Of a stretch of 24,247 bases of DNA, positions 1,968 through 13,730 are shown piece by piece. The first letter of the stretch is position 1. Every line of letters begins with the position of its first letter. Source of the stretch: a virus. The notes beneath the pieces are model-generated. The model had not been told where the DNA came from, searched no databases, and was given only the letters and a program-made list of their open reading frames with translations. The position numbers were made by a program, and so were the translations under genes. The DNA lies in IMG/VR virus record IMGVR_UViG_3300026483_000040, positions 1 through 24,247 of that record, one strand, 5' to 3'.

Positions 1968-2432
1968 TTATTTATCTTCGTCATATATTTCAACTGTGTG
2001 AATATCTTTAAAATTATATGCAGCCTTTGGTGTTGGTTGTTCTACTTCATGAATCTTACTAGATTCCTTTTTAGTCTTCATACTCTTAAGTCTTTCAACT
2101 TCCTTTTTCTTGATCTTAGGTAAGATCTTCTTAGCAATCTTCTTGATTGCAGCTTTCTTCTTTTCAACTTTTTTATCAACGACGGCTTTCTGTCCTGCTT
2201 CCAAATCTTGATATTTCTTATCTTTCAATATCTTGTTACGGATGATCTCCTTTGCAGCTTTTTCAGCTCTTTTCAGAATCTTCTCAGGTGAGGCTTTCTT
2301 CTTCATAGCAATAGCCTTCTTGCGTGCAATCTTTGGTGCAAGACGTTTCATGATTCGACCTCTTGCTCTTCTCTGAGAAGGTGTGAGAGGTTTCTCACTT
2401 AAATTGGTTAATGTTTTTTCTATAATATTCAT
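1968..2432 (-). CDS. Lysine-rich, histone-like conserved phage protein
   Basis: A 154-residue, extremely basic protein. The N-terminal part contains SQRRARGRIMKRLAPKIARK followed by AIAMKKKA, and long Lys/Ala helices run to about residue 125. The last 30 residues are acidic and polar, ending VEIYDEDK. The RRARGRIMKRLAPKIAR block recurs in T4-like cyanophage and related genomes (memory), where the family has no settled function. Charge and low complexity suggest DNA condensation or a role as an internal head or core component, but no clear prohead-protease site is seen in it. A purine-rich AGGAG lies 12 bases before the ATG, embedded in the end of the preceding gene. Confidence 0.75.
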   Translation of the reverse strand: MNIIEKTLTNLSEKPLTPSQRRARGRIMKRLAPKIARKKAIAMKKKASPEKILKRAEKAAKEIIRNKILKDKKYQDLEAGQKAVVDKKVEKKKAAIKKIAKKILPKIKKKEVERLKSMKTKKESSKIHEVEQPTPKAAYNFKDIHTVEIYDEDK

Positions 2433-2765: not shown

Positions 2766-4058
2766 TTATACTTTTTTCTTTCGGGTATATGTTTTGCTCT
2801 TTTTATCAAACCGCCAATCTTTCTTATTGAAGTTTTGGAAATTTTGAACTTCATCATACTCGTCAACTGTTAAAGTGTTTGTCTTTTCAAAATCAACTGA
2901 TTCACCAATTGTGTCTACTTCAGGTTGTTTATTAATGAAACGGGTGATATGTTTTTCATTTGGAACGATAATACTAAGACCAGATTTATCAATATTGAAA
3001 TCATATGAATTGAATTTGTTTCTCAATTTCTTCTGAAGTCTTAATGCAGCCGGTTTTGTTAAAGCCTTAACAACGACGCGGCGACCATCTTCTACACCTA
3101 TATTTTCTTTAATCGATTCAAGTTTAGCCAACTTGGATTTTAGCATCTTGATATACTTATCTTTTCCGCCGTATTGCTTAATCATTTTAGGCGATGGATT
3201 CTTAATCAAATCTTTTATAGATTTAATATCAAGATCTTTATCAGTTGATTCGAGTAACTTAAGTTCTTTCATTCGATCTTTTACAACAGATTTTGGTGCT
3301 TCCATACCGCTTGGAGCTTTAACACCAATAAGAGTTCCAAGGTCTTGTGTTAGATCAGCATTCTTAATTTTACCAGTTTCAATTGCTTTAACAATATTTT
3401 GTGCAACAGTTTTGCGTTGATTCTTCTTTACAGCGTCACTCATGATCACTATTCCATCAACCCAATTTCTTAAGGATTCTTCTCCCTTTTTCATAGAATA
3501 CATACCTTTATGAGTCTTAACTTTGATTGCTTCTTCAAGATCAGTAGATTCTTTAGCCATCACTCTCTGAGCAATTTTAACAAGATTTTCAATCTTGTCG
3601 TTTTCCATCTTCTTCTTGGTTGCAACACTGACCTTATCATAAATCTGACTGATAACAGATGCTGTCTGCATATCAATCATCTTTCCTCCGATCTTAGATG
3701 CTTGCTTATCTGAGACAATTGTTTTAATCTGATCAATCACAGAACCCTTACCTTCTTGAATCTGCGTCGATTCAACATAAGCATTCAATTCATACTTACC
3801 AGAATCCATACCATAGACTTGAAAGGCTAGTCTTTTCCTTGTTTCTTTACCATTCTTAGTAACTTTAACAATATATCTATTGGTCTTACCCTTACCTGGC
3901 TTTTTAGGTCCGGTTGAGACTTGATTGAACCAATCATCTTCATCAACTTCAAATCCTCTTTTCTTGGCAAGGTCTAATGCTGCTTTTGCAGCAGATGTAA
4001 ATGTTTTGTGATATAGAGGGTAATCACCCTCTTTCAAGTATTGTGAAAATGAAATCAT
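2766..4058 (-). CDS. Predicted packaged head protein with capsid-targeting N-terminus and protease sites
   Basis: A 430-residue modular protein. It begins MISFSQYLKE|G, matching the T4 capsid targeting sequence MKTYQEFIAE|A position by position. Segment 24-96 contains RGFEVDEDDWFNQVSTG and RYIVKVTKNGKETRKRLAFQ, an alpha-beta module I recall from other T4-like marine phages. Further matches to (L/I)-x-E|(A/S/G) lie at about 102/103 (IQE|G), 176/177 (ESTDLEE|A), 270/271 (LLE|S) and 386/387 (IGE|S), roughly between predicted modules. The tail is basic and aromatic. No enzyme motif is recognised. The gene starts one base after the polyprotein stop (TAATATG) and ends the late internal-protein cluster. 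Packaging and processing are inferred from motifs; short motifs can arise by chance, but the N-terminal match and the repeated ESxDLEEA linker make chance unlikely. Confidence 0.7.
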   Translation of the reverse strand: MISFSQYLKEGDYPLYHKTFTSAAKAALDLAKKRGFEVDEDDWFNQVSTGPKKPGKGKTNRYIVKVTKNGKETRKRLAFQVYGMDSGKYELNAYVESTQIQEGKGSVIDQIKTIVSDKQASKIGGKMIDMQTASVISQIYDKVSVATKKKMENDKIENLVKIAQRVMAKESTDLEEAIKVKTHKGMYSMKKGEESLRNWVDGIVIMSDAVKKNQRKTVAQNIVKAIETGKIKNADLTQDLGTLIGVKAPSGMEAPKSVVKDRMKELKLLESTDKDLDIKSIKDLIKNPSPKMIKQYGGKDKYIKMLKSKLAKLESIKENIGVEDGRRVVVKALTKPAALRLQKKLRNKFNSYDFNIDKSGLSIIVPNEKHITRFINKQPEVDTIGESVDFEKTNTLTVDEYDEVQNFQNFNKKDWRFDKKSKTYTRKKKV

Positions 4059-4059
4059 A

Positions 4060-6096
4060 TTAAAGTTCTCTTGTAAATTTATTGAATGTTTTAACTATTT
4101 TACTTGGCGCCCATGAAATGTCAACATTAGACTCTGCAATAAATGAATCAATTAACTTTTCATCTGATTCATTTACAGACAATTGAATTACTTTACGAAG
4201 ACGAAGTGTTTCAAGTGAAACAGATTCTTTCATCTCTTCACCCTTAGGTCTATCTTTAATGTTACTTGGGTAACGAATTTTCAAAGGATTGTTGGTTACA
4301 AAGATTAATTCGCCATCAGCATCTAGACCAGCCATAGTATAATTACCAGTCTTCATTTTAAGATTATTGAGAGGACCGAGTTTGATTGCACCAGGTCTCA
4401 CCTTAGAAATAAGAGGCTTGAGATTGTGTTTCTTAATAAGTTTTTCTCTTCTCTTCTGGTTACCTTTTGTTCTAATCCAAGCCTTCTCCAATTCTTTAAA
4501 TGGAAGAGTTGCTTCTTCAAGATCAACTGATTCTCCTAATACAGCATCTACACTTCCGCTTGGAACTGTCATTGGATCAGCCTTCATTTGCTTAAGACCT
4601 TTCTTAATAGCTTGAGCGCTATTGCTAGCTTTCACATCAACTGTTTGACCTTTAAAAAGTTTACCCGTTTTCTTAGTAATTGTAACTGTCCACCATTTAA
4701 CAGCTTCTTCAAGATCAACTGATTCTCCTAGTACAGCATCTACACTTCCGCTTGGTACTGTATTTGGATCAGCCTTCATTTGCTTAAGACCTTTCTTAAT
4801 AGCTTGAGCAGAGTTACTTGCTTTCACATCAACCGTTTGTCCTTTAAAGAGTTTACCAGTTTTCTTAGTAATAGTAACTGTCCACCATTTGACTGCTTCT
4901 TCAAGCTCAGTTGCTTCTTCAAGGTCATTTGATTCGTTATAAGCTGGTTTGATTGCAAGAAGTCCTTGTTTACTTTTTGGAACTTTAAGCTTATTGATTG
5001 CAAATTGTTTTGCGCCCCAAAGGTCTTTTGCATCTTTTTTCGTGATCTCTAATTTCTTTCCTTTAAAGATTGCTATCCAACCATCAGCTTCTTCAAGATC
5101 AGTTGATTCACTAGCGAACATCTTTCTAGCGCCTTTCATAAATGCATCAAATTCTTTTCTCTCTGCAGGGCTTAATTTAATCTTTCCTTTAAGAACATCT
5201 CCTAAGGTTTCTGGGTTTATGCGGCCGAGTTTCTTAGCTAATTTATCGAATGAATCTTCTTCAAGATCAATATCTTCTTTCATTGATCTTTTTTGCATCT
5301 CTCTTTTGATGGCTAAAATAACTGGCTTAGCAGCAGAACGTCCAACGTTTTTGAAGATGTCAAATAAATCTTTTAAATCTGAATCAGAGAGTTTAGCATA
5401 ATCTGCGGCTGCAGCTTCTACTAAATCCGAAATAATGCCATCAATGAAAAGATCATCGAGATCTTCTGATTCATCCATGTTCTTTGTGATCTTATCAACC
5501 ACATCTTTCTTCAGCTTGACTTTAAAGGTCTTTCCGCCGAATTCAAATTCTTTCTTACCATCTTTAGCAGCTTGTGCCAAAGCTCCCATAAAAGCTGGCA
5601 CATCTTCATCGATGATCGCTTTAGGTATAAAATTTTGTCTTTTCATATTAGATTCAGTTTTCCCATTGATTGATTGTTTTGGTGTATCTTTCCTATATTT
5701 ATAAGAAAGCTGTTTTGTACCTTCTTCTCCTGCACCACTTTCTACTGTAAATTTTTGATTAGTTGTTTTAAAATCTTTCTTCCTCATAACAGTCTTTGCT
5801 ACCAAATCTAATTCACCATTCTTATCTAGTTGTAGAACAAATGGCATATTAATATCTGTTTCCATATCATTGATAACGGCCTGCGCCCCTTGACCAAGTG
5901 AGGCTATTTTCTTACCGTATCTACGATATGACTGTTTAAATAGTCTTTGTATCTCTGCCGGTGTGATATCTTTTTTATTACGAGAATCATTCAATCTATC
6001 AAGGAAATGTCGAGTGAATTCAACATCTAGGCCAACCTTACCCCAAAGTTTGTCGGCAAATCTTTCGATTGAATCTAATTGTTTTTTGGTAATCAT
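4060..6096 (-). CDS. Modular polyprotein with LEE|A cleavage linkers and duplicated 64-residue module
   Basis: A 678-residue protein built from modules. Residues 1-118 hold a domain with EFTRHFLDRLNDSRN followed by ITPAEIQRLF and LDLVAKTVMRKKDF, a layout like BECR/RelE-type RNases (His-x3-Arg helix then beta strands); this is a weak inference. Residues 155-205 are an alpha-beta module (IPKAIIDEDVPAFMGAL, KEFEFGGKTFKVKLKK). Residues 337-390 are a W-x-AIFKGKKLEI/KVPKSKQGLLAI module. Residues 401-464 and 465-528 are a near-perfect tandem duplication. T4-type prohead protease matches lie at E227|A, E336|A, E394|A, E400|A, E464|A, E528|A and E655|S, mostly in an ESxDLEEA linker. Its ATG directly abuts the TAA of the kinase gene. 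Unlike its neighbours it lacks a clear N-terminal targeting sequence. Likely cut inside the prohead; the function of the pieces is unknown. Confidence 0.7.
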   Translation of the reverse strand: MITKKQLDSIERFADKLWGKVGLDVEFTRHFLDRLNDSRNKKDITPAEIQRLFKQSYRRYGKKIASLGQGAQAVINDMETDINMPFVLQLDKNGELDLVAKTVMRKKDFKTTNQKFTVESGAGEEGTKQLSYKYRKDTPKQSINGKTESNMKRQNFIPKAIIDEDVPAFMGALAQAAKDGKKEFEFGGKTFKVKLKKDVVDKITKNMDESEDLDDLFIDGIISDLVEAAAADYAKLSDSDLKDLFDIFKNVGRSAAKPVILAIKREMQKRSMKEDIDLEEDSFDKLAKKLGRINPETLGDVLKGKIKLSPAERKEFDAFMKGARKMFASESTDLEEADGWIAIFKGKKLEITKKDAKDLWGAKQFAINKLKVPKSKQGLLAIKPAYNESNDLEEATELEEAVKWWTVTITKKTGKLFKGQTVDVKASNSAQAIKKGLKQMKADPNTVPSGSVDAVLGESVDLEEAVKWWTVTITKKTGKLFKGQTVDVKASNSAQAIKKGLKQMKADPMTVPSGSVDAVLGESVDLEEATLPFKELEKAWIRTKGNQKRREKLIKKHNLKPLISKVRPGAIKLGPLNNLKMKTGNYTMAGLDADGELIFVTNNPLKIRYPSNIKDRPKGEEMKESVSLETLRLRKVIQLSVNESDEKLIDSFIAESNVDISWAPSKIVKTFNKFTREL
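4511..4894 (-). repeat. Tandem duplication, 2 x 192 bp, inside the polyprotein gene
   Basis: Units 4511-4702 and 4703-4894 encode two 64-residue modules that begin AVKWWTVTITKKTGK and end GESVDLEE. The proteins differ at one residue (ADPNTV versus ADPMTV), while the DNA differs at roughly 18 positions. One SNSA stretch uses AGC for serine in one copy and TCT in the other. Nearly all differences are silent, so the duplication is not recent and both copies are held under protein-level selection. The unit boundaries coincide with LEE|A protease motifs. Confidence 0.95.
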
Positions 6097-8166
6097 TTAT
6101 TTTTTGACAGGTTTCTCATGAACCCAACCTTTATCATTTAATCGATTGTGATCATCTTCAGTTTCAGCCCATTCTTTTTCACCAGTCTTTGGATCATACA
6201 TCCAATGTGACTTGAATTCAGATTCTTTCATGCCCTTATGCTTCTTCCATAAATCAGCATCAGCGGTTGTTCGAGTTTTTCCACCAGTAGCAAATGAATT
6301 GATTCTAGCATATCCCCACTGTTCTGGAGTTGTGCCAGGGCGATGTCCTGTTCTCCATGCCGCTACACCCCGATCAAATACCTTCTTGAGAATAGCATAA
6401 GAAATACCAGTCTTTTCTGCTTTCTTTTGAATACCTGTCTTAACATCTTCATATACTTCACCAAGTTGTTGCTTAATCCAATCTCTCGCAATCTTATTTC
6501 TTGGAGTTGCATTAGCAAACTTAATCATCTTCTTATAAGCATCAGTTGTTGCTTTCTGCCAATTGGCACCCTCGGAATTATCCACAATTACAAAGTTATC
6601 TTTGAAGAATGACTGGAATTTACCAATATTCTTCTGAACACCGTCCCACATAATCTTTACTTGTTTCGGACCGAGTGTTCGACTTCTCATTGAATCTCTT
6701 TTAACAGCAGTTTCTAGATCAGTGTTTACAAAAATCATACCTACATCATAACCAATTTCTTTTAGTTTGTTGGCTTGCTTTTTAATCTTCTCATAATCTT
6801 TGCCCGTTCCATCAATCACCAAGCCGAGTCGTCCCTGAATGTAAAGACTCATCTGTTTAGCAGTTAAAGACTTTGCCTTTGCACGAACCTCTTGTCCCTT
6901 TGGAGAGAAGATAAATTCTGGCTCCATCACTCCACCTGCTTTTTCGATTGCTTTTTCAAAGGCAGGATCAGAGTTCACCAATTTAAATCCTAGAGCACCG
7001 AGACCTGTCTTACCCACTGTAAATGATTTACCAGAGCCTGGGCCACCTGCAAGGAATACGGCTTTAAAGATTGCAGGATCATCTACACCCTCTTCTACAT
7101 TATCTTCGGCATCAATGATAGGGTTCTTATCTTCGCCAAACATATCTTTGAATTTCTTAGTATGTTTCGAAGGTTTTGTTTTAGCAGATGCATCACCAGG
7201 AGCTGCCTTATAAGCAGATGGATCATCATCAGATTTTGCGGCACCTTTCTTAAAGTGTGCTGCTCTCTTTGCTTTAGTGGACTTTGCCATCTCATCTCCT
7301 TCAGCATCCTTTGCAAAATACTTTGCGGGTTGAGAACCTTTCCTATCCTTAATATCCTTATCTTGTTTTACTTCGACAATCTTATTAAGGAAATATTTAT
7401 TGTCATCTGAGCCTACGATATAGTTTGTACATCTTTCTGCAACTGAATGAATCTCGCCCCTTAAGTTTAAGAATCGATCACCAACAAGGAATACCTCTTC
7501 AGCAATGTATCTCTCACGAATATTTGATGTCTTTAATTCAATATGCTTACGAAAATTAGTCATCTCCTTCAAACCCATTCTCTTCCTAAGAAGATTGAAT
7601 ACGGCTAATTTATCACCAAAGGATTTTGGAAGACCATTTGAGAATGATTGAAAATCACCTTCAATAGCAGCTGCTCTCATCTTAGAAGCAGACATGCCAG
7701 AAACATCATCTGCATCTGGATCACGATCTCCTGCAGACACAATTGAAATTCCTTCTGGAAAATCATAAAAGCCGTGACGAGCCTTAACACCATTATACTT
7801 GTTCAATAGAGATTTAAAATCTGAAATTCTATCAGCACCAACTACCATTGTGGCTTTTGTGTAACCCGCATTATAAAGATATACTAGTGCATCAATTGCA
7901 TTTTTAATCTTCTTATCATAGATGATGTTGCGACCATGTTTTGGAAAGATCTTTCTCATCAACATAACCTTCTCTTTATACTCAAGAGGATCTTTCTTTG
8001 GGTTATTTGATTGAGACGCAAATATTTTATAGTCATTCCCTATAGCGAGACTAGCTACTTTAATCAGAAGTTTCTCATGCCCGCGGGTCGGAGGGTTGAA
8101 GCGTCCAAATGTGAACACAACTGATTTTGAGTTTTCTTCATTAAACTGTTTAAATCCTTTAATCAT
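6097..8166 (-). CDS. Nucleotidyltransferase - zeta/PNK-like kinase fusion, predicted packaged protein
   Basis: A 689-residue fusion. Residues 14-200 are a cytidylyltransferase/NMNAT-like domain: FTFGRFNPPTRGH (TRGH 27-30 replaces HxGH) and SGMSASKMR (157-164), the ISSTxxR-like motif. Residues 218-268 look like a small beta barrel (VGDRFLNLRGEIHSV). Residues 276-345 are basic low complexity (KSTKAKRAAHFKKGA, KTKPSKHTKKFKDMFGE). Residues 364-530 are a P-loop kinase of zeta-toxin/polynucleotide-kinase type: AGGPGSGKS (373-381), D400, VIDGTG (450-455) and an Arg-rich lid near 490-496. Residues 578-640 (GISYAILKKVFDRGVAAWRT, GTTPEQWGYARINSF) recall a phage family I remember as DUF5824. The N-terminus MIKGFKQFNEE is a degenerate capsid targeting sequence; NVEE|G (356-360) precedes the kinase. 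Substrates are unknown; nucleotide, cofactor or RNA-end chemistry is plausible. Confidence 0.82.
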   Translation of the reverse strand: MIKGFKQFNEENSKSVVFTFGRFNPPTRGHEKLLIKVASLAIGNDYKIFASQSNNPKKDPLEYKEKVMLMRKIFPKHGRNIIYDKKIKNAIDALVYLYNAGYTKATMVVGADRISDFKSLLNKYNGVKARHGFYDFPEGISIVSAGDRDPDADDVSGMSASKMRAAAIEGDFQSFSNGLPKSFGDKLAVFNLLRKRMGLKEMTNFRKHIELKTSNIRERYIAEEVFLVGDRFLNLRGEIHSVAERCTNYIVGSDDNKYFLNKIVEVKQDKDIKDRKGSQPAKYFAKDAEGDEMAKSTKAKRAAHFKKGAAKSDDDPSAYKAAPGDASAKTKPSKHTKKFKDMFGEDKNPIIDAEDNVEEGVDDPAIFKAVFLAGGPGSGKSFTVGKTGLGALGFKLVNSDPAFEKAIEKAGGVMEPEFIFSPKGQEVRAKAKSLTAKQMSLYIQGRLGLVIDGTGKDYEKIKKQANKLKEIGYDVGMIFVNTDLETAVKRDSMRSRTLGPKQVKIMWDGVQKNIGKFQSFFKDNFVIVDNSEGANWQKATTDAYKKMIKFANATPRNKIARDWIKQQLGEVYEDVKTGIQKKAEKTGISYAILKKVFDRGVAAWRTGHRPGTTPEQWGYARINSFATGGKTRTTADADLWKKHKGMKESEFKSHWMYDPKTGEKEWAETEDDHNRLNDKGWVHEKPVKK

Positions 8167-8170
8167 ATCT

Positions 8171-9406
8171 TTATCTTTCCCAGCCTTTTATTACATCTTT
8201 GCTGAAGTTATTCATTGAAAATTCTAATCTATCAACTAATTTGACTGCACCAGAAGTAGTCTTATCAATAGCAACAAATCCTTCAGAACCTGTTACCTTG
8301 AAACCATTCTTAGTACGAACAAAGGTATCAAGTTGTTTTACCTTATCAAGTTTATTTATAATAAGAAGCTTAGCATCTACAATAGCATTCTGAAGCTCAA
8401 ATACAAGTTGAAGGTTCTTTCTATTCTCTTTTGAGAAGAATCTCATCAATTCTTGTTCCTTCTTATCAACACCTTCTTTACCCTTTGGCGATTTTCTCTT
8501 TGCTCTTTCCTTCTCAAATCTATCTTTGAACCAAATGAGAAGATCATTCACATGCTTTGCTGGTGAACCAATTCTTTCACCTTTTCGAACAAGACTATTA
8601 TTAAATGTTTCGAATTGACCAGCAAGTTGTGGATTATCTTGAATCTGTTTGAGTGTCGAACTCGCAATCTTCTGAAAGATTTTACCTGCATTACTCAATG
8701 CATCATTCACTTGTTTTGTATCGGTAGCGGATAAACTTGCCTTACCTGTCACATCTCTATATTCAGCATCTTGATACCAGATTGAAGGTTTCTTCTTTAA
8801 ACCTTTTAGATTAACACCATAGGATGCTTTCATTGAATGAAAATCCTTACCTTTATAAGTTGTGTGCCATACAACTCCAAGATTTGCCTTAGCGATCTGT
8901 TTACCTAAATCTGATTTAACAGGAATAGCATAAACAATTGTGTTTGGCTGGAATGTGTAGTAAGATTCTCCATCAATCGATTCCTTTGCAACATCACCCT
9001 TTGTGAACATGATATCACCTTGAATCACATCTTTAATACCAAGATCTTTCAATTCATTAAAGGCAACTACTAATTTCTCAGCAAGATCACCAGATGTATC
9101 AGCACGAACATCAGCCTCTGATTTATATACCTTAGGATCTTTATTGAAGATGCCTTTCTTGGCAACAAAGAATTGACCATCACTTGGATCGATACCCGCA
9201 AACACTGCTGGTGCTCCATCCCATTTTACAGTAACATCATAATTCTCATTACTATTGCCTGCCAACATATCTCTCATTGCTCTTAAAGCAAAGATGGCTT
9301 CTCTTGCACCTTTAACACCACCATAAATCACTCGGTCTTCCAAGTGTGTCATGTGAGTATTCTTACTCGATGTCGCTTCGGCTATAAATGTCTTAAATGA
9401 TATCAT
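8171..9406 (-). CDS. DUF6267-like protein with KxDG ligase-like motif and capsid-targeting N-terminus
   Basis: A 411-residue protein beginning MISFKTFIAE|A, an almost exact copy of the T4 capsid targeting sequence MKTYQEFIAE|A. The mature part starts with NTHMTHLEDRVIYGG and resembles a family widespread in T4-like cyanophages, which I recall as DUF6267. VTVKWDGAPAVFAG contains K61-x-D-G64, the nucleotidyl-lysine motif of ATP-dependent ligases and capping enzymes. It is followed in the expected order by VIQGDIMF (127-134, like motif III), NTIVYAIPV (IIIa-like) and LGVVWHTTYKG (IV-like). A covalent nucleotidyltransferase or RNA/DNA ligase is therefore possible, but GD instead of GE in motif III is atypical. 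The C-terminal 200 residues are helical and charged. The start overlaps the cupin gene stop by one base (TAATG). Confidence 0.75.
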   Translation of the reverse strand: MISFKTFIAEATSSKNTHMTHLEDRVIYGGVKGAREAIFALRAMRDMLAGNSNENYDVTVKWDGAPAVFAGIDPSDGQFFVAKKGIFNKDPKVYKSEADVRADTSGDLAEKLVVAFNELKDLGIKDVIQGDIMFTKGDVAKESIDGESYYTFQPNTIVYAIPVKSDLGKQIAKANLGVVWHTTYKGKDFHSMKASYGVNLKGLKKKPSIWYQDAEYRDVTGKASLSATDTKQVNDALSNAGKIFQKIASSTLKQIQDNPQLAGQFETFNNSLVRKGERIGSPAKHVNDLLIWFKDRFEKERAKRKSPKGKEGVDKKEQELMRFFSKENRKNLQLVFELQNAIVDAKLLIINKLDKVKQLDTFVRTKNGFKVTGSEGFVAIDKTTSGAVKLVDRLEFSMNNFSKDVIKGWER

Positions 9407-9963
9407 TATGGTGCCAATTTAATTTCAACTTGTTTTGGTTTTACTTTCAAATCTTTCTTTAGAAATTTGGTCAATTGTTTAACGGCGCTTTTATATGTTG
9501 ACATTGCTTTTGAAAAGAATGTATCTTGTTGCATTCCAATCATTCCACCAGAATCTAAAGATGCTTTATAGTCAAATGCCCATGTTCCTTCGCCCTTAGG
9601 TTGTTGTCCTCGATGTGAGAATTGCCAAGGTGTTAAATCAATTGCATAACCTTCTTCGAGTTCTTGTTCCTCACAGAATGTTTTAAACTTTTTCATAGGC
9701 TCTTCTATCTGTATTTTAAGTGGTGTAGTTCCTGCTTTATAGAGACGATGATATTCCATCTTAGACACATTAAGAATATCACCAGCTTCTAACAATTTTG
9801 GTATATCATTATCCATCTGAAACATCCATCCATCACCCTCTAATATTGTAATAACACGATCTACTCGATCACGATGCCAAACTAGTTCATCTGATTCAAT
9901 ATCTGATTCAAATATACGAATCTTTGTATTACCTTTTATTTTATCTGTATATGGTTTACTCAT
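9406..9963 (-). CDS. Cupin domain fused to an internal head-protein-like domain
   Basis: A 185-residue protein counted from the ATG at 9961-9963, which follows the previous stop by one base. An upstream in-frame start at 9987 would overlap the previous gene and is less likely. Residues 14-88 are a cupin-like beta barrel: ELVWHRDRVDRVITILEGDG with His and Glu/Asp, then GDILNVSKMEYHRLY with a second His, plausible metal ligands. Residue 90 then starts MKKFKTFCEEQ, which aligns with the capsid targeting sequence of the neighbour (MISFKTFIAEA), and six residues on is LEE|G, a good prohead-protease site. About 80 residues follow (GYAIDLTPWQFSHRGQQPKG to the end) with no recognised family. The gene looks like a fusion of a cupin with a former packaged protein, or has an internal start at 9694-9696 preceded by purine-rich AGAAGAG. 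The cupin ligand is unknown. Confidence 0.7.
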   Translation of the reverse strand: MSKPYTDKIKGNTKIRIFESDIESDELVWHRDRVDRVITILEGDGWMFQMDNDIPKLLEAGDILNVSKMEYHRLYKAGTTPLKIQIEEPMKKFKTFCEEQELEEGYAIDLTPWQFSHRGQQPKGEGTWAFDYKASLDSGGMIGMQQDTFFSKAMSTYKSAVKQLTKFLKKDLKVKPKQVEIKLAP

Positions 9964-9964
9964 A

Positions 9965-10498
9965 TTACCAAAAAAATGCACCTCCACCTTTTAAGCCAAG
10001 TTGTGATGCATATCTTGGAAGATTGCATGACCAGTAACCTGCTTTTGTTTTATCTTTCTTTGCTGCACAGTTGTGTCGAGCGGCAAAAGATTTTCTTGCT
10101 TCGGGATCATCAATCTTAGCTTTAAGACCTGATGTATCTCCGAATTGAACCTTGATTACATTACCCTTATCATTCTTCACATATACGTAAAATTTCTTCT
10201 TTCCACCTCTTTTAGGTTTATTCAATTCTACATCATCGCCTTTATATTCTGCTTCATTAATGAATGGATGGTCAAGTGGAACTTCTTCACCTTCGTAGAG
10301 ACCAAACTTACCAATGTCTGTTGACATAAGATATTCATCAAATTCATTCAAATATGTTGGGGCCGTAGCAGATTCTTTCATCTGTCTAGCATATTCAAAT
10401 AACTTATAATAGTTTTCTGAATGTGGACGAAAGATATTATGTGCGATGGGTATTTGATTCTCTCTATGGAATCTCAATGCTGCTTCTAGTTGATTCAT
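9965..10498 (-). CDS. Conserved Cys-containing phage protein, predicted processed head protein
   Basis: A 177-residue protein. The N-terminal region has IPIAHNIFRPHSENYYKLFE, a block common at the start of phage accessory proteins, then TDIGKFGLYEGEEVPLDHP. FINE|A at about 79-83 matches the prohead-protease consensus and would release a C-terminal domain of about 95 residues. That domain contains KPKRGGKKKFYVYVKNDKGN, DPEARKSFAARHNCAAKKDK, AGYWSCNLPRY and a terminal GGGAFFW. The RHNC-x11-YWSC pair could bind metal, though only two Cys plus nearby His are visible. I recall this C-terminal block from many T4-like phages (possibly DUF5872; unverified). It overlaps the upstream gene by one base (TAATG), so it is part of the late cluster. 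Molecular function unknown. Confidence 0.75.
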   Translation of the reverse strand: MNQLEAALRFHRENQIPIAHNIFRPHSENYYKLFEYARQMKESATAPTYLNEFDEYLMSTDIGKFGLYEGEEVPLDHPFINEAEYKGDDVELNKPKRGGKKKFYVYVKNDKGNVIKVQFGDTSGLKAKIDDPEARKSFAARHNCAAKKDKTKAGYWSCNLPRYASQLGLKGGGAFFW

Positions 10499-11880
10499 TA
10501 CTTTTCTTTTAATATTATATATGCGCTTGAATCTGATGTTGAACTACCTGCGTAATTCACAATCTGTGTAATAAATTGATCTGCTTTCTTGCCACCATCG
10601 CCAATCAGATTGAGAATATATAGACCACCAAGTTTACCGTGAATCCATATATCAGAATTTCTCTTAATCTTACCAAGCTCTTCAATGACATTTTCTTTTG
10701 AAATAGTCTTGTCAAATTTCTGAAGCATCGCAGTGAATTTATTAATTGCTTTTGAATTGCCAGCTGCTATTGCTTTAGCCTCTTTTCTGAGATCATTATT
10801 TTTAGGCAATCTCTTCTTATAGATTCTCTTTGCTGCATCTTGCATCACACCCCAAGATGCACCACCTCCACGAGCACCTTTACCTTTAATCTCTGCTTTA
10901 TGTGATCCAAATGCACTATTAGCTCTTAGATCAATCTGTCCACCCATAAAGGTTACATAATTTGCTTTAGATGTGTACCATTCACCTCTTGCAATGGCTT
11001 TGATATGACCACCACTAAATTTATAATCAGATGTTAGAGGTGGTCTTTCAATATTCTTCTCAACACCCTTAACACTCTTTGCGACTTTCTTCAATGAGAT
11101 ACCAACCAGTCTCTTTTGAAGATATAAATCGAGTATATCATCATTAAAGCTTTCAACTGTTGATGTATCAAGTTCTTTTACTTTAAAACCTTTTTCTGAT
11201 ACCCAAATATCACCAGGATTCCATTTATCATCTTTTAACGGTTTAAAATCATTGTTCTTAAAGGCTTGATCTTTCGAAGAATATAATTCTTTCATCACTT
11301 TATCATCTCTATGAAAAATCATATCACGTTCAATCAAATGATTTCTGATAGCATATTGAGCCGTAAGATATGAAGAAATCTTCCAACTCTCATCGATATT
11401 AAGAATTTCTTTGATAGATGTTTTTCCAACAGAAACCTGTTTAAATGCTTTGATGAGAACTTCATCAGTAAAGCTTTCCATTGGTTTATCATAACCAATA
11501 TCTAACATAGCAGCCATCCACACACACTGTGCAGATTCTCCGATTGCTGTATTGGCTGTACCACCACCTGCTCCAGCACCACCACCGAATTCTGGTGATT
11601 TCAATATATCTGAAGAAGAAATAGTCTTGCCATTAACACCAGAGAGTTGGAATGCTTTACCATCTCTTTTGAACTGTTCAATTGCATCTAAAGCACCTTG
11701 AACACTGGCAACTGTTATCTCTCCACCTTTATATAATTTTAAAGGGATTTGTTTTTTAATAAGATCACTGAGAATATCGAGTCGTGATTGACCTTTATTA
11801 GGACCACCTGTTGCAGGTTTCTTTAACTCTGCAGGTGTTAAGTTAGTGGCTTCTACTATAAACTCTTTGAAAGATTGCAT
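10498..11880 (-). CDS. Predicted packaged protein with PD-(D/E)XK nuclease-like core and capsid-targeting N-terminus
   Basis: A 460-residue protein from the second ATG (11878-11880): MQSFKEFIVE|A aligns without gaps to T4 MKTYQEFIAE|A, which decides the start. An ATG nine bases upstream (ATGGGAAACATG) is an alternative. Residues 25-100 are a module with SRLDILSDLIKKQIPLKLY, then a Gly-rich linker (FGGGAGAGGG). The central region has GESAQCVWMAAML (E115), WNPGDIWVS (D224) and, after a helix, RLVGISLKK (K264/K265). Glu in a helix, Asp after N-P-G, and S-x-K in a strand is the layout of PD-(D/E)XK restriction-type nucleases. The C-terminal part contains WGVMQDAAKRIYKKRLPKN and a beta-rich end. 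It is the first gene after tandem late promoters. Nuclease activity is inferred from motif order only. Confidence 0.72.
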   Translation of the reverse strand: MQSFKEFIVEATNLTPAELKKPATGGPNKGQSRLDILSDLIKKQIPLKLYKGGEITVASVQGALDAIEQFKRDGKAFQLSGVNGKTISSSDILKSPEFGGGAGAGGGTANTAIGESAQCVWMAAMLDIGYDKPMESFTDEVLIKAFKQVSVGKTSIKEILNIDESWKISSYLTAQYAIRNHLIERDMIFHRDDKVMKELYSSKDQAFKNNDFKPLKDDKWNPGDIWVSEKGFKVKELDTSTVESFNDDILDLYLQKRLVGISLKKVAKSVKGVEKNIERPPLTSDYKFSGGHIKAIARGEWYTSKANYVTFMGGQIDLRANSAFGSHKAEIKGKGARGGGASWGVMQDAAKRIYKKRLPKNNDLRKEAKAIAAGNSKAINKFTAMLQKFDKTISKENVIEELGKIKRNSDIWIHGKLGGLYILNLIGDGGKKADQFITQIVNYAGSSTSDSSAYIILKEK

Positions 11881-11905
11881 GTTTCCCATAAATTAATGAT
11901 AGTGA

Positions 11906-11923
11906 TATTTATATCTATTTATA
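11906..11923 (-). promoter_or_regulatory. Tandem T4-type late promoters (two TATAAATA)
   Basis: Two exact copies of the T4 late promoter element TATAAATA lie on the minus strand at 11916-11923 and 11906-11913, two bases apart, 26 bases or more upstream of the first capsid-targeted gene. T4 late promoters consist of this -10-like element alone and are read by host RNA polymerase with gp55, gp33 and the clamp. The upstream copy overlaps the last codons and stop of the metallopeptidase gene. Position and exact match make this a convincing late transcription start for the packaged-protein module. Confidence 0.8.
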
Positions 11924-12355
11924 AGATTTCCACTCTTCATATAGCACATTTGATCTCTCATATGTCTCTTTTTCCCATGGCTCATCACTTTTTAACTTAG
12001 TCCAATCAACTAATTCTCCCATCCATTTACACATCTTAGGTGATCGAATGAGATCAACTAACTCACCCCTAACATATTGTTTAACGTGTATCATTTCATG
12101 TGCGAGTGTATCATGAATATCATCTAAGGTTAAGGAAGAATCAATTCTAATTGTGAAATCTCTTGGGTTATGATTATTATCATTCCAAGAACAGTCACCG
12201 TAAAGACCTTCTTTATCGGCTAGATTCCTTATAAGTTCTATATCAACTTCAAGGTTCTTTAATCTAGGCATAAGTCTTTTAACATAAAAAAAGAAAGCAC
12301 TTTCAAGTTCAGATCTAATCTTCTGATTTGAACCCCTTATTGATAATGTAATCAT
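11915..12355 (-). CDS. Zinc metallopeptidase-like protein (HExxH)
   Basis: A 146-residue protein from the ATG at 12353-12355, one base after the helicase stop (TGATATG). A longer frame reading upstream into the helicase gene is rejected because of that junction. LDDIHDTLAHEMIHVKQYVR holds the zincin motif H86-E-M-I-H90. DEPWEKETYER (about 124-134) offers a third metal ligand in the usual downstream position, as in small SprT-like or related phage metallopeptidases. The N-terminal 60 residues form a helical/beta region containing Cys55. No signal peptide or membrane segment, so it acts in the cytoplasm, perhaps processing phage or host proteins during infection. Substrate unknown. It ends the replication-gene run; its last codons overlap the late promoters. 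Confidence 0.82.
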   Translation of the reverse strand: MITLSIRGSNQKIRSELESAFFFYVKRLMPRLKNLEVDIELIRNLADKEGLYGDCSWNDNNHNPRDFTIRIDSSLTLDDIHDTLAHEMIHVKQYVRGELVDLIRSPKMCKWMGELVDWTKLKSDEPWEKETYERSNVLYEEWKSYK

Positions 12356-12356
12356 A

Positions 12357-13730
12357 TCAAATCTTAAAGGTTGAGAAATCAGAATTGGATTGCGTTTGTG
12401 GAGTAGAATCTGATGAACCATCATTAGATAGATTCTGTGCAGAAGTTTCAACATCATACAATCTCATCTTGGCACGATCAATCCCAACGACGAATCTCTT
12501 GTTGGCTGTTGGATCATTATATCGATTCTTGAGTTGTTTAACCATGAGCTGATTCATACCCTCAAGCTGTTCAGTTGAAATAAGAGCGAGCATCAAGTCA
12601 CAAGTTGCAGGAAGACCGAATGATTCTGAAGTATCAGTAATCTCAACGTCAGAATTACCAAATCCAGTTCTTGTTACCTGAGTTGCAGACCAGATTGGTA
12701 CATTGAACTCAACAGCAAGTCCTCGAAGTTCCTCCGCGATTGCTTTAACAAAAGAATATGTATTGATAGATCCACCAAGACCTTTCATTCGTGAAGAAGC
12801 CGCAATATTAAGATAATCAATGAATATAACATCAGGTTTGAAGTCTTTCTTCAATCTAAGTTCATCAAGCAAGGCTCGGAAATGACCAGAGTGAGCAACA
12901 GCTGTTGGATATTCCTTTACAATCAGTTTACCATTAGTCTTTGATTGAATCTTCTTTACCTTAGAATCAAATAGGTCTTTGGGTAGATTCTCAATATCAC
13001 CGATATCAATATCAAATAGATTTGCATCAATACGTTCAGCTATCTTTTCTTCAGCCATTTCAAGTGTGATGTATAGAACACTCTTACCTTCAGATAATGC
13101 AGCGGCTGCAAAATGACACATGGCAAGAGATTTACCAACACCTGTGCCAGCAAGGATAATATTCAATGTCTTTCGACCTACACCACCCTTTGTGATTGTG
13201 TTGAGCATCTCAATGTCAAACGGCATCTTGTCTTCTTTCTTATGATAGAAAGCAAAACGTTCAGATGCATTTTCAATATAGTCGTGTCCTACATTAGAAT
13301 CAAAGGAAACTCCTAGTGCATCTGATAAAATTTCGGGGATTGCACCTTCAGCCTTATCTTTCTTTTTACCATCAATGATCTGAATTGATTCCATGATAGC
13401 AAGGTACACGGCTCGATCTTTACACCACTTTTCTGTAGAATCAATTAGCCACTGATCATCGACCTTTTCCTCTTTCTCTAATTCACGAATGAGGGTTAGG
13501 ACCTCATTCGCGTCACTCCGTGTGATATGTTCCGAATTCTGAAACTCAATTTCAAGAGCAGCAGAATTAGGTAGTTTATTATATTCACTTACAAACGATA
13601 ATATTAATTTATATACAGGTGCATTATGAGCTTCAAAGTATTCAGTCTTTAAGTGAGGTAATGATTTTCTTGTGAAGTCTTCATTGTATATTAAGTTATT
13701 AAGTATTATCGCTTGTAAATCTTTAATCAT
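12357..13730 (-). CDS. 41: Replicative DNA helicase, T4 gp41 / DnaB type
   Basis: A 457-residue hexameric-type 5'-3' helicase that unwinds DNA ahead of the fork and works with primase. The N-terminal region (1-150) is helical, as in gp41/DnaB. The RecA-like core has Walker A GTGVGKS (195-201), a catalytic segment VLYITLEMAEEKIAERIDAN, Walker B PDVIFIDYLNIA (about 299-310), and GLAVEFNVPIWSATQVTR, the DnaB motif with the polar Gln. The C-terminus has LKNRYNDPTANKRFVVGIDR, then a short low-complexity tail. Length is close to T4 gp41 (475). The start ATG overlaps the stop of the upstream small gene by eight bases, implying coupling. The order UvsX - small gene - gp41 is as in marine T4-like phages. 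Confidence 0.95.
   Translation of the reverse strand: MIKDLQAIILNNLIYNEDFTRKSLPHLKTEYFEAHNAPVYKLILSFVSEYNKLPNSAALEIEFQNSEHITRSDANEVLTLIRELEKEEKVDDQWLIDSTEKWCKDRAVYLAIMESIQIIDGKKKDKAEGAIPEILSDALGVSFDSNVGHDYIENASERFAFYHKKEDKMPFDIEMLNTITKGGVGRKTLNIILAGTGVGKSLAMCHFAAAALSEGKSVLYITLEMAEEKIAERIDANLFDIDIGDIENLPKDLFDSKVKKIQSKTNGKLIVKEYPTAVAHSGHFRALLDELRLKKDFKPDVIFIDYLNIAASSRMKGLGGSINTYSFVKAIAEELRGLAVEFNVPIWSATQVTRTGFGNSDVEITDTSESFGLPATCDLMLALISTEQLEGMNQLMVKQLKNRYNDPTANKRFVVGIDRAKMRLYDVETSAQNLSNDGSSDSTPQTQSNSDFSTFKI

Follow-up and report, generated by a model that had tools for sequence, protein, structure and literature searches.

Capsid targeting tags and shuffled modules joined by protease-type sites in a candidate internal head protein island of a marine T4-like phage

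Introduction

The gene block at positions 2766-11880 of IMG/VR virus record IMGVR_UViG_3300026483_000040 (the window, meaning the whole 24,247-base stretch analysed) raises the question of why genes for quite different proteins should begin with similar short strings, and of where those proteins go. An earlier reading of the sequence (the original prediction) had likened the strings to the capsid targeting sequence that brings T4 internal proteins into the prohead core, and had proposed that a set of phage enzymes is packaged and delivered to the host with the DNA; this overall interpretation is partly supported by our analysis. By testable features of their sequence, the window tags are T4-type capsid targeting sequences. 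What is new is that two proteins of the block, of 678 and 430 residues, consist of shuffled modules joined by ESxDLEE↓A, by its sequence a prohead-protease motif (arrows mark predicted cuts); their modular build and internal protease-type sites (ORFs 4060-6096 and 2766-4058) had been missed and may matter most. We consider it likely that the block and a gene at 1968-2432 together form an island of internal head proteins that is expressed late, involving tags, prohead cleavage, shuffled polyproteins and delivery to the host.

A marine T4-like myovirus is the source of the 24,247-base contig, a genome fragment whose list of open reading frames (ORFs) includes DNA polymerase, UvsX, a helicase of the gp41 type, Hsp20 and part of a ribonucleotide reductase subunit. 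A homologue of its DUF6267 protein occurs in 455 phage records, the closest named relatives being phage C48C1 (57% identity), the Methylophilales phages Melnitz (50%) and Stenotrophomonas phage DLP_6 (45%). Strand counts for tags, the strand ratio of late promoter boxes and family counts were taken from 80 stretches kept of 224 confirmed IMG/VR stretches; individual loci carry L numbers.

Results

N-terminal tags in the window, in relatives and in T4

Tags were scored with a position-specific matrix that was ungapped and trained solely on DUF6267 N-termini from metagenomic loci; it overlooks tags one residue shorter or longer, such as MRFRQFIIEA of phage S-SZBM1. All five N-terminal strings named in the original prediction are where it had placed them, on the minus strand, and they are listed here with a sixth, degenerate case:

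11851-11880, minus strand: predicted capsid targeting tag MQSFKEFIVE of the 460-residue protein, by profile score
9377-9406, minus strand: predicted capsid targeting tag MISFKTFIAE of the DUF6267 protein, by profile score and homologue alignment
4029-4058, minus strand: predicted capsid targeting tag MISFSQYLKE of the 430-residue protein (next residue G), by profile score
8134-8166, minus strand: degenerate tag MIKGFKQFNEE of the nucleotidyltransferase-kinase ORF, with a cleaner form in relatives
9667-9696, minus strand: internal tag-like string MKKFKTFCEE (then Q), inside ORF 9406-9987
1968-2432, minus strand: very basic protein (module U, net charge about +30), its tag degenerate in the window and clean in relatives, e.g., MISFSTFLFEKPLTPQQR

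The string MQSFKEFIVE↓A starts at 11880; the first ATG of its ORF is at 11889 (ATGGGAAACATG), and because GGGA precedes the second ATG, 11880 is the likely true start. The matrix gives the three clean tags scores of 28.0, 24.6 and 17.1, values reached by about 5e-6 to 9e-6 of 214,817 internal 11-mers, and besides these three no gene of the window lay above the profile threshold. Degenerate forms are clean in relatives, where the nucleotidyltransferase begins MKSFKQFNEES and MKTFKEHTIEEEQELEEGYAIDL heads a separate gene (L030). When N-termini were aligned across related phages, the tag proved to be conserved in orthologues, as had been anticipated: F4 and E10 are nearly invariant among DUF6267 homologues, beside a stretch of variable length.

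The information content of the tag peaks at positions 4, 10 and 7, followed by 5, 8 and 2 or 6, and it does so for DUF6267 as well as for the other tagged genes. The most conserved positions thus include 4, 7, 10 and 8, in agreement with T4 amber-suppressor work that assigns residues 4 and 7 to targeting and residues 8 and 10 to processing (PMC9026906). Applied to the 275 genes of T4, the matrix placed ipIII, ipII, gp61.1 and ipI at the top, in that order; training on marine phages thus sufficed to find the classical T4 internal proteins again. Chance resemblance is ruled out by the rates among internal 11-mers and by strand, since 165 of 1122 sense ORFs in related contigs are tagged as against 1 of 973 antisense ORFs; common ancestry of the tagged proteins is ruled out because the mature proteins that bear the tag fall into 17 or more unrelated families.

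The third-ranking T4 gene product, gp61.1 (54 residues, MKTFKEFIKED..., NC_000866 18966-19130, which is L143 367-531), adjoins gene 61.2 and is predicted from its sequence to be an apparently unannotated T4 internal protein.

Tagged proteins in the virions of relatives

Capsid targeting by these tags is well supported, for the window phage by sequence and by the virion proteomes of its relatives. When all genes of S-CREM2 were scanned with the matrix, four lay above threshold, encoding a cytidylyltransferase, a hypothetical protein, a SAM hydrolase and an APH/ChoK-like kinase, and all four appear in the published virion table (PMC10665884; hypergeometric p = 0.002 versus 50/235). Pooled over the three phages scanned in this way, five of eight profile hits are in virion lists, where about 1.4 would be expected from base rates. 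Tagged homologues of the window nucleotidyltransferase are virion proteins in all four cyanophages examined (S-SM1, S-SZBM1, S-SCSM1 and S-CREM2). The T4-GC190 cytidylyltransferase of S-SM1, reported in virions (PMC3037559), begins MKKFSAFLNEA; the virion cytidylyltransferase of S-SZBM1, which begins MRFRQFIIEA, was missed by the matrix because its tag is one residue shorter than the matrix allows. The kinase of S-CRM01, found in virions according to PMC10665884, begins MISFDQFLSEK.

Similar strings, below threshold or internal, are carried by the virion Cas9-like nuclease of S-CREM2 and by two small virion proteins of that phage. The nuclease (gp12, L147 7704-10313), which is reported in virions, has RFASFMAEAAV near its N-terminus and, on this resemblance, may be packaged through the same signal. 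A small protein of about 107 residues with the N-terminal pattern MKxFKxFxSESVNISGDFNGNLY is encoded in S-SZBM1 (122311-122640) and at L218 716-1036 (SSCSM1_30), near the terminase gene in S-SCSM1; its tag is strong, yet it is in neither virion list.

Cleavage consensus in relatives

The prohead protease gp21 is found in C48C1, Melnitz, HTVC008M and Syn9. The gp23 region that aligns to the T4 cleavage site reads FLTE↓T in C48C1, FLSE↓A in Melnitz, FLGE↓I in HTVC008M and LLGE↓A in DLP_6, a consensus that the tag end, F(I/L)xE↓A, fits; SLEE↓G, ELEE↓A and TLEE↓A are present in gp22 of Melnitz and C48C1. A gp21-type prohead protease would thus probably cut the tags after the Glu. Blind recovery of the T4 internal proteins, conservation in orthologues, occurrence in many families, this cleavage consensus and the virion mass spectrometry (MS) of relatives together strongly support the claim that several enzymes of the block carry a T4-type capsid targeting sequence.

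Modular proteins with internal protease-type sites

The 678-residue and 430-residue proteins are mosaics of mostly basic modules of 30-110 residues that are reshuffled between phages. Letters denote modules:

4060-6096, minus strand: 678-residue modular protein, modules K-N-L-M↓B↓A↓A↓C-D, without clear N-terminal tag
5089-5112, minus strand: predicted protease site SESTDLEE↓A
4915-4938, minus strand: predicted protease site NESNDLEE↓A
4897-4914, minus strand: predicted protease site ATELEE↓A
4705-4728, minus strand: predicted protease site GESVDLEE↓A, between two copies of module A
4513-4536, minus strand: predicted protease site GESVDLEE↓A
2769-4028, minus strand: 430-residue modular protein past its tag, modules E-F↓G-H-I-J
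3531-3554, minus strand: predicted protease site KESTDLEE↓A in the 430-residue protein

The two copies of module A in ORF 4060-6096, of 64 residues each, are identical at 63 of 64 positions and are flanked by protease-type sites. Nine such sites occur in the window cluster, as compared with 0.7 expected by shuffling, and none in the rest of the window. In relatives the modules recur in different orders and in different genes: described with 25 seed modules, 120 proteins yield 55 distinct module strings. Module A alone adjoins nine different neighbours on its left and six on its right; it has no match in named phages. Pieces homologous to the 678-residue protein are tagged elsewhere (e.g., MIQFKEYLEIG in L009). 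Single-linkage clustering of the segments between sites had collapsed to one family and was replaced by the 25 defined seeds and an out-of-sample test.

Strict sites are confined to the sequence between modules, with 113 outside modules and 0 inside (19,203 and 18,723 residues, respectively). Because the seeds had been drawn partly between sites, the count was repeated with the seeds fixed on 14 contigs fetched afterwards, and it again separated completely (54 outside, 0 inside, p = 6e-14). A reversed-motif control gave three instances in all, none within modules, which is too sparse for a strong control. The left boundary of module A is a site in 25 of 25 homologues, and module Q, found in another protein of the block, is preceded by (LIVMF)xE↓(AGS) in 18 of 20 distinct contexts despite differing upstream sequence. 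In 91% of contexts the joint is followed by A, G or S. The sites also favour E at -7 (68%) and S at -6 (49%), preferences that the search pattern did not impose. Predicted fragments are basic (isoelectric point, pI, 8.8-10.0); exceptions are the tags, one six-residue piece, the cupin portion and the acidic beginning of the 177-residue protein. Both modular proteins would, on this evidence, be polyproteins that are cut during head maturation.

Within the same proteins, the Leu codon is CTT in 49 of 50 distinct linkers as against 37% elsewhere (p = 2e-20), and linker Ser is always TCN as against about 68%. This uniformity indicates that the linkers share recent DNA ancestry, as expected from module exchange by recombination there, although repeated duplication could have produced it instead. 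The linker DNA, GAATCNNNTGATCTTGAAGAAGC, is kept at synonymous positions across contexts (window 3531-3554, 4513-5112 and related loci).

Late promoters

Two T4-type late promoter boxes stand before the first tagged gene:

11906-11913 and 11916-11923, minus strand: boxes TATAAATA, conserved 5' of the tagged first gene in relatives

In relatives the box mostly lies at -25 to -41 from that gene. All six copies in the window are on the coding strand, and the ratio of coding to other strand in relatives is 202:10. With the boxes and this strand bias, the block resembles a late island embedded in the replication region, and late expression of its tagged genes would be in keeping with that sequence pattern. 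The original prediction had put all the genes behind tandem late promoters; this holds for the first gene, and the others would be served by read-through only.

Discussion

Proposed mechanism and alternatives

Our proposal starts from the observed tags, their spread among unrelated genes, their link to virion proteins in relatives, the placement of the protease-type sites and the shuffling of modules. The block would be transcribed late in infection from T4-type late promoters, and its N-terminal 10-residue tags, MxxF(K)x(F/Y)(I/L)xE, would act as capsid targeting sequences that bring the proteins to the prohead core, where a gp21-type protease would remove each tag by cutting after the Glu. 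Inside the prohead the same protease would cut the ESxDLEE↓A linkers and separate modules of about 30-110 residues, nearly all of them basic; one gene would thereby deliver several small head proteins (the 678-residue and 430-residue proteins, and smaller ones), while recombination at the linkers would swap modules between phages. The mature pieces, comprising an RNA-ligase-like enzyme, an NMNAT-like/kinase protein and small basic modules, would remain in the head with the DNA, enter the host with it at the next infection and most likely counter host defences or repair damage as infection begins. Cleavage, retention and delivery are modelled here on T4, whose IPI inhibits the GmrSD restriction system and whose IPIII is required to infect one E. 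coli strain (PMC9391042). For the polyprotein payload in particular, with modules joined by a 23-base-pair linker that would be both recombination joint and prohead-protease site, freed in the maturing head and injected, we judge the chances to be about even.

Several observations weigh against an island of delivered head proteins. The head genes for gp21 and gp23 are absent from the 24-kb contig. Neither of two profile hits in S-SZBM1 is in its virion list, and one of two in S-SCSM1 (the NMNAT, MKSFLQFLKEA) is listed, the other being unlisted; the authors of the MS virion lists caution about possible carry-over in caesium chloride (CsCl) preparations. The 678-residue protein is without a clear tag that would account for its entry into the head, and its AlphaFold model is poor (mean predicted local distance difference test score, pLDDT, 46), with folded modules and disordered linkers not discernible. 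Moreover, many protease sites need not mean retained products, because T4 gp21 also shreds gp22, gp67 and gp68 into short fragments that exit the head.

One could accordingly envision that the tagged enzymes are packaged but that the modular proteins form a scaffold-like prohead core, which is shredded and leaves the head so that the modules are not delivered. The T4 core proteins furnish the precedent, gp22 of Melnitz and C48C1 has the same LEE↓A/G motif, and the 678-residue protein lacks a clear tag; against this, the sites keep to the linkers (113:0 and 54:0) rather than being spread along the chain, and the modules are conserved, basic and reshuffled, unlike the acidic scaffold. In addition S-SZBM1_139, which looks modular, adjoins the nucleotidyltransferase and is a virion protein. 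We regard shredding of the modules as unlikely, though deserving of serious thought.

Alternatively, the modular proteins might stay uncut, with ESxDLEE giving acidic flexibility between the domains of a stable multidomain protein, or marking a recombination joint there that DNA exchange maintains. Recombination alone could explain the synonymous conservation of the linkers. Against this reading stand the A, G or S that follows the joint in 91% of contexts, the fit of the joint's end to the prohead-protease consensus in gp22 and gp23 of relatives, and the (LIVMF)xE↓(AGS) before module Q in 18 of 20 contexts with differing upstream sequence; stable uncut proteins appear distinctly improbable. 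It is also conceivable that the N-terminal motif is no packaging signal at all and reflects chance, a helix retained by descent or abundant late proteins carried over into virion preparations, the last being raised by the MS authors; some tagged genes are indeed missing from virion lists. With 165 sense against 1 antisense occurrence, no fewer than 17 unrelated families, the T4 internal proteins recovered blind and four of four hits in S-CREM2 virions, we give this very little credence.

Comparison with known systems and significance

The window tags resemble that of T4 IPI, IPII and IPIII (MKTYQEFIAE↓A, cut by gp21) in length, spacing, positions 4, 7, 8 and 10 and the Glu at the cut, and one profile finds both; late expression and a basic mature part are further likenesses. 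Unlike the T4 internal proteins, which are single small proteins, the window cargo is unrelated and much larger, and includes enzymes and multi-module proteins with internal protease-type sites. The cyanomyoviruses S-SM1, S-SZBM1, S-SCSM1, S-CREM2 and S-CRM01, marine and freshwater, have NMNAT/cytidylyltransferases, kinases, a SAM hydrolase and a Cas9-like nuclease in their virions, and among these proteins the nucleotidyltransferase is homologous to that of the window and has the same tag. In the accessible text of the papers on those virions the targeting tag goes unmentioned, and packaging is treated as unexplained or as possible carry-over. To these phages the window adds a DUF6267 protein with a clean tag and the putative modular polyproteins.

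Polyvalent proteins, which occur in phages and conjugative elements (Iyer et al. 2017, PMC5512222), are described as many-domain chains with extensive mosaicism, predicted packaging and delivery, and are likened there to polyproteins. They share with the window proteins several domains per chain and mosaic architectures (here 55 module strings in 120 proteins); they differ in that the processed ones are reported to use embedded peptidase domains, whereas here the prohead protease would cut linkers, and in that our modules are small and basic. Since a Pfam search of the cluster proteins gave none of the polyvalent hallmark domains (MPTase, ART, ParB/DdrB, PBECR and others), we do not class them as polyvalent proteins. 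In the giant phages the prohead protease likewise trims packaged, ejected proteins (SPN3US gp245 and phiKZ gp175) at x-x-E sites; those proteins have long removable propeptides, in contrast to a series of modules between sites that we propose are retained. In the literature accessible as main text (subscription journals were mostly outside reach), we found no prior account of head polyproteins joined by protease sites, nor of the tag in marine T4-like phages.

The tag amounts to a sequence rule that predicts which proteins are carried inside T4-like phage particles, abundant marine ones included. It offers an answer to the outstanding question of why NMNAT-like enzymes, kinases, a SAM hydrolase and a Cas9-like nuclease occur in cyanophage virions, and predicts gp61.1 as one more T4 internal protein. 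The build of the two modular proteins, small interchangeable units joined by protease-type sites, points to a mix-and-match cargo in the particle. Should the proposed cleavage take place, tailed phages use polyproteins to load several small cargo proteins per gene, with modules exchanged at the joints.

Predicted enzymes and neighbouring genes

The remaining parts of the block, from its first gene onward, are:

10501-11850, minus strand: predicted mature part of the 460-residue protein, phrog_1462, 49.3 kDa, pI 9.5
9965-10498, minus strand: 177-residue protein, predicted site FINE↓A (10253-10264) before basic module Q (9968-10252)
9406-9987, minus strand: 193-residue ORF with a weak cupin part, predicted site ELEE↓G and basic module R (9409-9651)
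8174-9376, minus strand: predicted mature DUF6267 protein with RNA-ligase-like motifs KWDG, EGFV and KLVDR
6100-8133, minus strand: NMNAT/cytidylyltransferase-like, zeta/PNK-like kinase and DUF5824 protein, possible site NVEE↓G at residue 359 (before 7089)

The nucleotidyltransferase and kinase domains assigned to ORF 6097-8166 in the original prediction both exceed Pfam cut-offs: PF01467 (CTP_transf_like) scores 25 bits against a gathering threshold of 21, with an HxGH-type signature GRFNPPTRGHEKLL, and PF06414 (zeta toxin) 37.2 bits against 22.3, with the P-loop GGPGSGKS, zeta and PNK types not being told apart. DUF5824 is above its cut-off as well. A cupin had also been named, and here the Pfam match is weak (E 0.008). 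In window 9406-9987 the cupin-like part is fused to a tagged basic module, the two being encoded separately in L030 and others. Translation might also begin internally at 9696, though no good ribosome-binding site was seen there. The nuclease-like domain of the original prediction found no database support and stays unproven, because PDB sequence searches with DUF6267 and with the 460-residue protein gave nothing useful; a PD-(D/E)xK-like pattern (PKTDI...SLK in Melnitz, HTVC008M and S-SM1, DIWV...ISLKK in the window) is a lead at most.

The slot between the helicase gene and DUF6267 (window 10498-11880; L030, L044, L053, L056, L063, L083 and L085) holds several unrelated, mostly tagged proteins and is a hypervariable cargo position. 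Just 5' of the late promoters, overlapping the helicase gene, is an ORF (window 11915-12457) resembling an SprT-like metallopeptidase by a weak Pfam match.

The ligase-like protein of the original prediction is DUF6267. K61, D63, G64, E375, G376, V378 and K389 are invariant in 31 sequences (KWDGAP, EGFV and KLVDR), corresponding to the KxDG motif I, EG(F/V)V motif IV and motif V Lys of the covalent nucleotidyltransferase superfamily. A PDB sequence search gave nothing useful, and a structural model (pLDDT 70.6) had no Foldseek match at E <= 0.001; the leading matches of its residues 62-216 are RNA ligases (1xdn, Z 6.5; T4 Rnl2, Z 6.2), which at Z <8 are suggestive only. Another tagged protein, HAD-like and beginning MLSFKTYLSEG..., is encoded at L021 123-728; it matches the HAD domain of Swiss Army Knife RNA-repair proteins below the cut-off. 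Together with the domains of ORF 6097-8166, the DUF6267 motifs and the ligase-leaning model, this match gives a hint that some of the tagged cargo may act in nucleic-acid repair.

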